From Brevibacterium sp. UMB1308A (GTDB taxonomy: Bacteria > Actinomycetota > Actinomycetes > Actinomycetales > Brevibacteriaceae), in contig NZ_JASPDO010000012.1 in the NCBI RefSeq assembly GCF_030230605.1, positions 7,887 through 71,886 on the forward strand: a stretch of DNA of 64,000 nt. Reading direction: 5' to 3'. A program made the position numbers and the translations under genes. Position 1 is the first letter of the stretch. Every line of letters begins with the position of its first letter. The notes under the pieces were generated by a model. It saw only the letters and a program-made list of their open reading frames with translations. It did no database searches and had not been told where the DNA came from. Below, piece by piece: positions 1 to 63,417 of the stretch.

Positions 1-911
1 ACCACGCGGGCTTCCATGCGCGCGATCTTGAACTGGATGCCCTGGTAGTTGGCGATCGGCTTGCCGAAGGTCACGCGTTCCTTCGCGTACCGCACCGACT
101 CATCTACGCATCCTTGTGCGGCACCCACGGACAGGGCGGCGACTGCGATACGGCCTTCGTCCAGGATGCGCAGGAAGTTGGCGTAACCTCGGCCGCGTTC
201 ACCCAGCAGGTTCTCTTCCGGAACACGCACGTTGTCGAAGGTCAGCGGGTGGGTGTCGGAGGAGTTCCAGCCCACCTTGTCGTAGGCAGGTTCAGCGGTG
301 AAACCAGGGGTTCCAGTAGGGATCATAATGGTGGAAATCTCTGGCTTTTCCTTACCGTCGCGACCCGTGCGGATTCCGGTGACGGCGGTAGCGGTGACCA
401 GGCGGGTGATGTCCGTTCCGGAGTTCGTGATGAACTGCTTGGATCCGTTGATGACCCATTCGCCGTTTTCCAAAACAGCCTTCGTCTTGGTGCCGCCGGC
501 GTCGGAGCCGGCCTCGGCCTCGGTCAACCCGAACGCAGCCAACCCAGAGCCATCGGTGAGCTTGGGCAGCCATTCCTGCTTCTGCTCTTCGGTTCCAAAG
601 CGGTAGATGGGCATAGCACCCAGCGAAACCCCGGCCTCCAGCGTGATGGCCAGCGACTGGTTGTTGCGCGCCAGCTCTTCAATAGCCAGGCACAGGGCGA
701 AGTAGTCGCCGCCCATTCCGCCGTACTTTTCATCAAAAGGCAGACCGAACAGTCCCATCTGGCCCATTTTCGCGACCAGCTTGTACGGGAATTCGTGCTT
801 TGCGTCGAGTTCGGCGCTAACAGGTGCGACTTCTTCGTCTGAGAACTTTGCAACCTGCTGACGTAGGGATTCGTATTCTTCCGGCAACTGGCCGGGCATA
901 AATGTGATCAT
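1..911 (-). CDS. acyl-CoA dehydrogenase, 3' end cut by window edge
   Basis: About 303 residues are present and the C-terminus lies left of base 1. The protein reads as an FAD-dependent acyl-CoA dehydrogenase: an N-terminal helical domain, the FGLTEAEAGSDAGG segment typical of the middle beta-domain, and WVINGSKQFITNSG. Its ATG (909-911) overlaps the TGA of the biotin carboxylase gene as ATGA, so the two are translationally coupled. The order carboxyltransferase, biotin carboxylase, dehydrogenase matches the mycobacterial accD1-accA1-fadE19 set, so a short branched-chain acyl-CoA such as isovaleryl-CoA is the likely substrate. The substrate is inferred from context, not from specificity residues. 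Confidence 0.9.
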   Translation of the reverse strand, partial: MITFMPGQLPEEYESLRQQVAKFSDEEVAPVSAELDAKHEFPYKLVAKMGQMGLFGLPFDEKYGGMGGDYFALCLAIEELARNNQSLAITLEAGVSLGAMPIYRFGTEEQKQEWLPKLTDGSGLAAFGLTEAEAGSDAGGTKTKAVLENGEWVINGSKQFITNSGTDITRLVTATAVTGIRTGRDGKEKPEISTIMIPTGTPGFTAEPAYDKVGWNSSDTHPLTFDNVRVPEENLLGERGRGYANFLRILDEGRIAVAALSVGAAQGCVDESVRYAKERVTFGKPIANYQGIQFKIARMEARV

Positions 912-61638: not shown

Positions 61639-63417
61639 CTACTTTTTACGGTTCATAGCGCCGCGGGTGCGGCTGATTCGGTAGTCGATACGATCGTCGA
61701 TACGCGCATCGACTGGGCGACCAAACTTCTCGTCAAAGTCTTCCACCAACGATTCGCTAATGGTGCGGTAAACCTCACGCAGACGTTCGCGTTCAATCGC
61801 CGACATATCGGCTTTGAAGCTCCGCAAGGTCGCCACGCACATGAACAGCAACACCACGCTGAATGGAAGGGCTGTTGCAAGGGCGGCCGCCTGCAGGGAT
61901 GTCAAACCACCGGCCAGCAACAGGCCGATCGCCAGGGCACCTTCCAGCACTGCGAACAGAACACGCGACCATACCGGCGGGTTGGGGTGACCTCCCGAGG
62001 CCAGCATGTCCACAACCAGCGAACCAGAGTCAGAAGACGTGATAAAGAAAATCGCCACCAGGATGATTGCGATTACCGACAGGATCGATCCCATGGGAAG
62101 GTCGGACAGCACGTGGAACAGCGCGGCCTCTGCTACGACCTCGCCCTCTTCATTCACCAGATCGCCTTCACCAAAGAACTGGCGGTAAATACCTGCTCCA
62201 CCCATCACGGAGAACCAGAAGAAGCCCACAATAGACGGAACCAAAAGGACACCTGCGATGAACTGGCGGACGGTACGACCTCGGGAAATACGGGCAATGA
62301 AAACACCTACAAATGGTGCCCAGGAGATCCACCAACCCCAGTAGAAGATGGTCCACGAAGAGTTCCACGTGGCCCCGTCGTCACCCGTGTAGGCACCCAC
62401 ATCGAACGTCATGTTGAGCACATTGGCCAAGTACACGCCAATCGATTCGATGAAGTTTTGGAACAGGAACAGCGTAGGACCCACCAACAGCACACTGATC
62501 AGCAGAATGCCCGCAAGCGACAGGTTGATGTTCGACAGCCAGCGAATACCAGCACCCAGGCCACTCACCACAGACAGCGTGGCCAGGAACGTAATTGCAA
62601 CGATCAAGATGACCAGGAGGCGGTTGTCAGCTTCGCCGACCACGCCCAGCTCTGCTAGCCCGGCTGCGATCTGCTGAACTCCTAGTCCCAACGAGGTTGC
62701 GATACCAAAGATGGTTCCGAACACCGCGAGGTTGTCAATGACGTCACCCATCCAGCCTTTGACGCGCTCACCCAGGAGCGGTTCCAAGGCCCAGCGGATC
62801 GAGACGGGACGGCCGCGCCGGTGAACGGCGTATGCAAGGGCAAGCCCAATGACGGCGTAGATGGCCCAGGGGTGAAGACCCCAGTGCACGAAGGTCTGTG
62901 CCATCGCAAGCTGGCCGCGCATGGCCTGGTCTTCTGGCCAGCCTGGTTTGGGGTCCACGGTCGCGTAGATGAGCGGTTCGCCCACACCATAAAACACCAG
63001 GCCGATTCCCATACCGGCTGCGAACAGCATGGCAAACCATGACAATAGACCGAACTCTGGTTTGTCGTTCTCTTGGCCAAGCTTGATGGAACCGTACTTG
63101 GAGAACGCAACTACCAGGGCAAATGCAATGAAGGCGGCGATGACCAGCATGTACCACCAGCCCAGCGTGCCTACAATCCAGCTCTGCATGGCGACAAGCG
63201 CGTTACCTGTGGCTTCAGGTGCCGCGATTGCGATGATGGCCACTGCTAAAACGACGATCAGCGAGGGCCAAAAGACAAAAGGCGTCACTCCACCTTTAGA
63301 AATTCGTACGCCTTGACGTTTAAGTTTTTCAATAATGACTTCGTCAGAGTCATCATCGTGTACCTTGTTCTGAACTTGATGTTGAATTTCGTGTTCGTCA
63401 CTCAGTGATGAAGACAT
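61639..63417 (-). CDS. BCCT-family betaine/choline/carnitine transporter
   Basis: A 592-residue protein with twelve membrane helices. The signature WALEPLLGERVKGWMGDVID is followed by GLGVQQIAAGLAELG; the WISWAPFVGVFIARISRGRT segment with Trp-rich aromatic box is kept. Charged N-terminal and C-terminal tails, like BetP. It imports compatible solutes such as glycine betaine, driven by sodium or protons. Confidence 0.94.
   Translation of the reverse strand: MSSSLSDEHEIQHQVQNKVHDDDSDEVIIEKLKRQGVRISKGGVTPFVFWPSLIVVLAVAIIAIAAPEATGNALVAMQSWIVGTLGWWYMLVIAAFIAFALVVAFSKYGSIKLGQENDKPEFGLLSWFAMLFAAGMGIGLVFYGVGEPLIYATVDPKPGWPEDQAMRGQLAMAQTFVHWGLHPWAIYAVIGLALAYAVHRRGRPVSIRWALEPLLGERVKGWMGDVIDNLAVFGTIFGIATSLGLGVQQIAAGLAELGVVGEADNRLLVILIVAITFLATLSVVSGLGAGIRWLSNINLSLAGILLISVLLVGPTLFLFQNFIESIGVYLANVLNMTFDVGAYTGDDGATWNSSWTIFYWGWWISWAPFVGVFIARISRGRTVRQFIAGVLLVPSIVGFFWFSVMGGAGIYRQFFGEGDLVNEEGEVVAEAALFHVLSDLPMGSILSVIAIILVAIFFITSSDSGSLVVDMLASGGHPNPPVWSRVLFAVLEGALAIGLLLAGGLTSLQAAALATALPFSVVLLFMCVATLRSFKADMSAIERERLREVYRTISESLVEDFDEKFGRPVDARIDDRIDYRISRTRGAMNRKK

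Follow-up and report, generated by a model that had tools for sequence, protein, structure and literature searches.

An abundant, non-polar word in Brevibacterium genomes is a probable DNA uptake sequence, with an unrelated counterpart in a second family of Micrococcales

We analysed a 64,000-nucleotide stretch of the genome of Brevibacterium sp. UMB1308A (contig NZ_JASPDO010000012.1, positions 7,887 to 71,886; hereafter the window) and found a dispersed short word, ACCTCGG, which is real, non-polar, selected or driven, and dialect-like between species. The word is dense, independent of reading frame, conserved at silent sites and set in species-specific flanks, and it occurs in genomes that carry comEC and tadA. 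We consider it probable (roughly 0.7) that it is a DNA uptake sequence of Brevibacterium, a reading that rests on sequence properties and in which the uptake step itself is what we infer. An earlier note on the window had already suggested this role; the dialects, the silent-site conservation and an accessory base 11 bp away are further traits of uptake sequences that go beyond it.

The window contains 78 copies of ACCTCGG (42 on the plus strand and 36 on the minus strand, spanning 186..62284), 45 of them without a following G, whereas the mean over 100 dinucleotide-preserving shuffles was 10.4 copies and the maximum 19. The octamer ACCTCGGG occurs 33 times (shuffle mean 2.85, maximum 8). These recounts agree closely with the approximately 75 heptamers (41 plus and 34 minus) and 32 octamers that the earlier note had reported. 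When all words of the window were ranked by z-score, ACCTCGG was the top 7-mer and CCACCTCGG the top 9-mer. Among 8-mers, CACCTCGG ranked first (50 copies versus 4.1 expected) and ACCTCGGG second, and among 10-mers, ACCACCTCGG (20 versus 0.4) ranked second, behind an AT-rich word with a single occurrence. The proposal that ACCTCGGG is the best form of the word was not upheld, as CACCTCGG is better in the window and CACCTCGGCG in most of the genus. The mean gap between heptamers is 806 bp with a coefficient of variation (CV) of 0.97, meaning that the copies are spread like a random series.

Genome-wide counts were made in relatives of the source strain, chiefly in two sister genomes, G001 and G025, which are 96% and 88% identical, respectively, to window positions 2000-20000; G025 is a single contig of 2.41 Mb. 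The excess is clear at this scale, with 677 copies of ACCTCGGG in G001 (339 and 338 per strand) versus 58 (25 and 33) of the reversed word. Polarity was assessed in 20 evenly distributed stretches of the G025 chromosome (400 kb in total). The forward share of copies per stretch ranges from 0.32 to 0.65 and is homogeneous (chi-squared 12.6, 19 degrees of freedom), 158 of 357 neighbouring copies are on the same strand, and the copies are spaced at random, not evenly (CV 1.11). Chi and KOPS (FtsK-orienting polar sequences) are words that are skewed in strand along the replichore, and the argument that even strand use speaks against both is borne out by the absence of replichore skew in G025.

The earlier note had also held that codon use alone does not explain the word, and this proved correct. 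Synonymous codons were shuffled among genes, using a gene set from a crude custom gene caller and 40 shuffles for the window. Coding DNA of the window contains 72 copies of ACCTCGG, in comparison with a codon-null mean of 15.5 and maximum of 23, and coding DNA of the G025 sample contains 306 versus 81. Non-coding DNA is also enriched (6 versus 1.1 in the window and 70 versus 10.1 in 69.7 kb of G025), while the reversed word GGCTCCA matches the codon-null expectation. The word is not confined to one reading frame. Most coding copies in the window lie in sense frame 0 (s0; 25 of 72) and antisense frame 1 (a1; 21 of 72), but there is an excess in five of the six frames, clear in s0, s2, a1 and a2 (for instance 6 versus 0.5 in s2 and 12 versus 0.8 in a2 of the window) and weak in s1 (8 versus 3.8 in the window, 32 versus 22.5 in G025); almost no copies are expected in the remaining frame, a0.

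Copies of ACCTCGGG on the plus strand are located at 2480..2487, 6432..6439, 6918..6925, 8356..8363, 12827..12834, 15216..15223, 19046..19053, 34820..34827, 40034..40041, 41283..41290, 42880..42887, 45255..45262, 47407..47414, 53719..53726, 54012..54019, 54856..54863, 55844..55851, 59179..59186 and 62278..62285. Those on the minus strand are located at 3760..3767, 7930..7937, 9810..9817, 13122..13129, 17165..17172, 19296..19303, 20325..20332, 25500..25507, 30682..30689, 39935..39942 (in a close inverted pair with a copy at 39950), 41220..41227, 44081..44088, 50268..50275 and 51551..51558. Five copies had been placed in gaps between genes. Four of these (those at 8356, 25501, 53719 and 54012) are non-coding according to the gene caller, but the copy at 50268 sits in an open reading frame (ORF) at 48866-50482 on the minus strand, which encodes an amino-acid kinase with ACT domains. 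The copies at 22809 and 54856 are non-coding by the caller, a status that is uncertain because unselected ORFs overlap both.

The copies are conserved between sister species. In G025, 63 of 75 window copies are intact, in comparison with 44% of all 7-mers of equal G+C content (rank 2 of 499 common words), and in G001, 45 of 49 are intact, in comparison with 75% (rank 27 of 282). At third codon positions within the word, 2 of 104 sites differ from G001 (1053 of 10948 elsewhere) and 11 of 157 differ from G025 (4643 of 17878 elsewhere), so that divergence at these positions is 4-5 times lower within the word than outside it.

The flanks of the word carry additional signal. Besides ACCACCTCGG, the 10-mers ACACCTCGGG (11 copies) and ACGACCTCGG (10 copies) are in excess in the window, and the +1 position is occupied by G at a frequency of 0.42 and by C at 0.35. 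The flank consensus RACCACCTCGGGC described previously is thus a genuine flank type, but one of several. G025 and G001 favour C at -2, C or G at both -1 and +1, G or C at +2, and A at -11. The A at -11 was assessed against a background of one-mismatch sites, excluding copies that have a further CCTCGG or CCGAGG no more than 45 bp away. It is present at 0.48 of 52 non-coding sites (background 0.21), and by frame at 0.53 versus 0.13 in s1, 0.52 versus 0.27 in s2, 0.28 versus 0.13 in a1, 0.37 versus 0.24 in a2 and 0.34 versus 0.29 in s0, which makes it clear in four of the five frames tested. In the more distant genome G057, position -11 is A in 0.34 (background 0.25) and G in 0.15 (background 0.31). 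As this accessory base lies about one helical turn from the core and does not track the reading frame, it suggests recognition by a DNA-binding protein. Some copies form inverted pairs: 9 of 13 CCGAGGT..ACCTCGG pairs within 60 bp in G025 are non-coding, several with clear stems. The DNA uptake sequences (DUS) of Neisseriaceae and the uptake signal sequences (USS) of Pasteurellaceae are frequently found in inverted repeats that act as terminators (PMC12616744, excerpt).

To describe the range of the word, CACCTCGGCG was counted in 60 Brevibacteriaceae genomes, comprising 57 Brevibacterium and one each of three other genera, and was near-equal on both strands across them. It is present in 757-1,558 copies in 38 of the 57 Brevibacterium genomes (reversed word 8-23), in 127-424 copies in 12, and in only 29-86 copies in seven (reversed word 6-35); the single genomes of the other three genera have 70-166 (reversed 15-44). 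Flanking variants differ between species. G031 has 86 copies of CACCTCGGCG but 207 of GGCACCTCGG (reversed 5); G012 and G030 have plentiful ACCTCGGG (732 and 641 copies) and few ACCACCTCGG (47 and 66), although in the G+C-rich samples from these two genomes the codon null yields about half of the genic ACCTCGGG seen. Elsewhere, ACCTCGGG is near its reversed control (212 versus 187 in G037, 172 versus 156 in G038, 394 versus 325 in G034). Across 24 of the 57 genomes, ACCACCTCGG ranges from 14 to 419 copies. We read this species pattern as probable dialects, by analogy with Neisseriaceae. No strong replacement word was seen in motif-poor Brevibacterium; GGCCTCGG is approximately twofold above the codon null (77 versus 37.5 in G002, 29 versus 12.8 in G037 and 32 versus 17.4 in G016). 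Among 297 genomes of the order, ACCACCTCGG is often several times above its reversed word outside Brevibacterium too, a surplus that we read as a likely effect of composition and codon use. The window TopA protein is 73-80% identical to those of nine Brevibacteriaceae loci (eight Brevibacterium and one Sediminivirga) and at most 68% identical to those of the other 71 among the best 80 loci.

A second, unrelated word was found in another family of Micrococcales. CGGCATAC is dispersed on both strands in four loci (L033, L041, L062 and L031, from Knoellia flava, Phycicoccus, Intrasporangium oryzae and a metagenome-assembled genome), and like ACCTCGG and CACCTCGGCG it is non-palindromic, differing from its own reverse complement. 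Genes of these loci contain 52 copies versus 2.7 under the codon null, with all six frames above expectation, and there are 16 copies in their 17.3 kb of non-coding DNA. In 248 genomes of the order, CGGCATAC exceeds 1,000 copies in 10 of the 18 genomes of one family (f17), which from the named loci we take to be Dermatophilaceae in the wide sense, and stays below 200 in the other 230. In a larger set of f17 genomes, 52 of 99 exceed 1,000 copies, the maximum being 4,724 (G339), with nearly equal strands; the reversed word occurs 30-522 times in these 52, giving an excess of approximately 2.5-fold (G258) to 50-fold (G200). The genera g109 and g117 have instead CGGCATCC, a one-base dialect of CGGCATAC that is also found in locus L060, with 3,816, 3,838 and 3,949 copies (reversed 392, 439 and 289) and just 235, 272 and 40 copies of CGGCATAC, while both g131 genomes carry CGGCATAC and CGGCATCC together. 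Counts of CGGCATAC vary even within genus g116 (3,681 in G410, 1,062 in G352 and 19 in G388), and a Flexivirga locus (L046) has 9 genic copies of CGTCATAC versus 1.0 expected. A scan of 76 Micrococcales loci flanking topA recovered the GGCATAC word in L031, L033, L041 and L062 plus numerous weak ones; as no locus exceeds 23 kb, the scan neither excludes nor establishes further words. This independent second word with one-base dialects is the strongest push towards interpreting the Brevibacterium word as an uptake sequence.

Reading a word during DNA uptake would require a competence machinery, and the window encodes a Tad pilus cluster on its minus strand. It comprises a TadA/CpaF-like pilus ATPase (28826..29971; PF00437, E = 2e-49), a candidate part of the uptake machinery; TadB-like (27984..28799) and TadC-like (27364..28053) membrane proteins with T2SSF domains; and a TadE-like minor pilin (26475..27107; PF07811, E = 3.7e-7), which by analogy alone is a candidate receptor for the motif. 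Beside tadE lies a small protein without a Pfam match (26021..26539), which from its position might be a further minor pilin, and a ParA-like ATPase (29972..31000; match below the Pfam cut-off) is a possible TadZ. The transformation of Micrococcus luteus requires tad genes (PMC4322843, excerpt). TadA and ComEC matches are present in 60 of 60 Brevibacteriaceae genomes, including motif-poor ones, and ComEC is present in 95 of 99 f17 genomes; the four without a match are fragmented assemblies, 58-95% complete. The genes therefore speak for the possibility of uptake but not for use of the word, and the Tad cluster loses the value as specific evidence that the earlier note had given it; what stands from that interpretation is the genome-wide excess and the lack of strand skew and frame restriction. 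In genome G055, which has only 151 copies of CACCTCGGCG, the TadA match (contig C14, 66944-80507) is in two pieces (query 5-253 and 251-371) separated by approximately 12 kb, which would fit an interrupted gene.

We propose the following mechanism, in which that the word is read during uptake, the protein that reads it and the competence of these bacteria are all things that we infer. The uptake sequence would consist of the core CACCTCGG, flanked on each side by C or G, together with an accessory A at 11 bp upstream. The pilus involved in competence, most likely of the Tad/Flp type, would bear a minor pilin that prefers word-bearing DNA, ComEC would pass one strand inward, and recombination would then replace alleles. 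Because word-bearing fragments would enter more often, biased conversion would carry the word to sites at which protein and RNA can accommodate it. A lineage whose receptor changed its preference would adopt a different dialect or be left without the word. Among the mechanisms that we considered, biased uptake by a sequence-preferring pilus would explain the traits of the word together.

In its anatomy the word resembles DUS and USS more than what Chi, repair bias or codon bias would give. A recombination signal of the Chi kind, recognised by a double-strand-break nuclease and kept for protection or repair of the chromosome, would also be an abundant, non-palindromic, octamer-like word conserved at silent sites, and Chi words do vary between lineages; known Chi words are however skewed to one replichore strand, which the G025 copies are not, and one-base dialects within one family and an accessory base would be atypical, so we regard this explanation as unlikely. 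Binding of the word by a protein that organises the chromosome, or by some other abundant DNA-binding protein, would account for the frame-independent accessory base and for the even spread over both strands. This reading is nevertheless improbable, given that such sites are usually degenerate or clustered, that the spacing observed here is random, and that a structural role would make gain, loss and one-base switching within a genus or family costly.

Self-marking by a DNA-modifying enzyme, in which the word is a target of methylation or a similar modification and its abundance a by-product, would suit a short non-palindromic word that differs between species, but modification provides no reason for the enrichment or for the reduced silent-site divergence, and we consider this very unlikely. 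Still less credible is a functionless mutation or repair bias that turns near-matches into the word. Certain near-matches are indeed scarce in genes of the window and G025 (ACTTCGG 31 versus 91 expected, ACGTCGG 47 versus 97), yet the depletion is scattered over several positions and types of change (CCCTCGG 0.36 and ACCTCCG 0.32 of expectation) with no single position responsible, other variants are at or above expectation, all one-mismatch words pooled reach 0.79 of expectation in the window and G025 and 1.13 in G057, and the accessory base is left unexplained. Codon or codon-pair preference would put most copies in s0 and a1, where they are, but it is contradicted by the codon shuffle, by frames s2 and a2 and by the non-coding copies of G025, and it can practically be set aside.

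Several observations count against an uptake sequence. At third codon positions within the word there is no conservation with respect to the distant genomes G031 and G057 (43 of 76 and 34 of 56 changed, slightly above the rest), so the sites must turn over, and the density of the word is not raised in segments alignable to these species. Named Brevibacterium topA loci have modest or no excess of the heptamer (for instance 18 versus 9.2 in L004, B. linens, and 5 versus 7.8 in L008, B. senegalense), making it unremarkable in part of the genus. None of the inverted pairs is non-coding in the window (0 of 2) or in G057 (0 of 3), and since all 60 family genomes have TadA and ComEC matches, these genes do not account for the distribution of the word among species.

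Long motif-free gaps in G025, picked by length without a control, encode transporters, a restriction-type domain and a helicase. Specifically, L148:1-14024 and L149:1-10883 contain MFS and ABC transporters, a Type I restriction-type domain, an AAA_12 helicase and a DUF4357 protein, with an alanyl-tRNA synthetase at the edge; these stretches may be acquired DNA. G057 has a motif-free gap of 7.0 kb. No Brevibacterium plasmid record was present among the matches listed in protein searches for such plasmids. In the window, 20175-22538 contains opposed long ORFs (683 aa on the minus strand, without a Pfam match, and 774 aa on the plus strand, the caller's choice), and 22929-25316 on the minus strand encodes a protein of 795 aa that carries an HNH endonuclease domain close to its C-terminal part. 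Other repeated words were also observed: in 164 kb of G031 (L090-L093 and L170-L174), 10-mers around CCCGTTAGCA / ACTCCCGTTA have 11-13 copies versus <0.1 expected, perhaps a dispersed repeat element, and in 200 kb of G030 (L150-L159), the 10-mers AGCTATCCCA / ATAGCTGGGA and GCAATTGCGC have 7-9 copies versus <0.1.

Taking both words together, the sequence data lead us to favour, with somewhat better than even confidence, sequence-specific DNA uptake in Actinomycetota with at least two origins, unrelated words (CACCTCGG in Brevibacterium; CGGCATAC, CGGCATCC and CGTCATAC in Dermatophilaceae-type Micrococcales), reading by Tad/Flp pili, and dialect switching or loss within genera. Among the papers listed in searches of the open-licence literature, none was seen to report an uptake sequence in Actinomycetota. 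The terms "uptake sequence", "uptake signal" and "DUS" are absent from the main texts of PMC4322843 and PMC8467076, and a literature search for the words themselves returned a whole-word match in one paper, which by its title concerns Ralstonia typing. According to an excerpt of a 2016 review, sequence-specific uptake is known in two families, Pasteurellaceae and Neisseriaceae (PMC5031613). If the words are read during uptake, self-recognition in transformation would have arisen on at least two further occasions, among Gram-positives and with a different kind of pilus. Natural competence would then be predicted for many Brevibacterium and Dermatophilaceae-type species, adding the word to donor DNA would be a simple help for genetic work, and near-identical dialects one base apart would allow the receptor to be found by comparison.

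Among known chromosomal words, Chi and KOPS resemble the Brevibacterium word in being over-represented and octamer-like, but they are strand-polar. HIP1 (highly iterated palindrome) of cyanobacteria is likewise highly iterated, and its role is debated, but it is palindromic, unlike the Brevibacterium word. A further parallel is Micrococcus luteus, an actinomycete that needs tad genes for transformation; Brevibacteriaceae have TadA and ComEC.

The USS of Pasteurellaceae have a short core with contributing flanking elements (PMC7811141, excerpt), and a minor pilin is their predicted receptor (PMC12616744, excerpt). The Brevibacterium word similarly combines a core with a flank signal; the sequences are unrelated, however, and USS flanks are AT-tracts, whereas the Brevibacterium accessory signal consists mainly of a single A at 11 bp upstream. 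The DUS of Neisseriaceae differ in that their effect on transformation has been demonstrated, where that of the Brevibacterium word is predicted; the latter is also unrelated in sequence and belongs to a Gram-positive phylum with no known type IV pilin ComP. DUS are non-palindromic, occur approximately 1,000-6,000 times per genome and form dialects one or two bases apart, with one genome carrying two dialects and some members of the family lacking DUS (PMC3630211, excerpt). As far as these excerpts go, the words described here share with DUS their copy number, one-base dialects, the presence of two words in one genome and wordless relatives, and the 757-1,558 copies of CACCTCGGCG in most Brevibacterium genomes are near the 1,465 USS of Haemophilus influenzae and the 1,892 DUS of Neisseria meningitidis (PMC7811141, excerpt).

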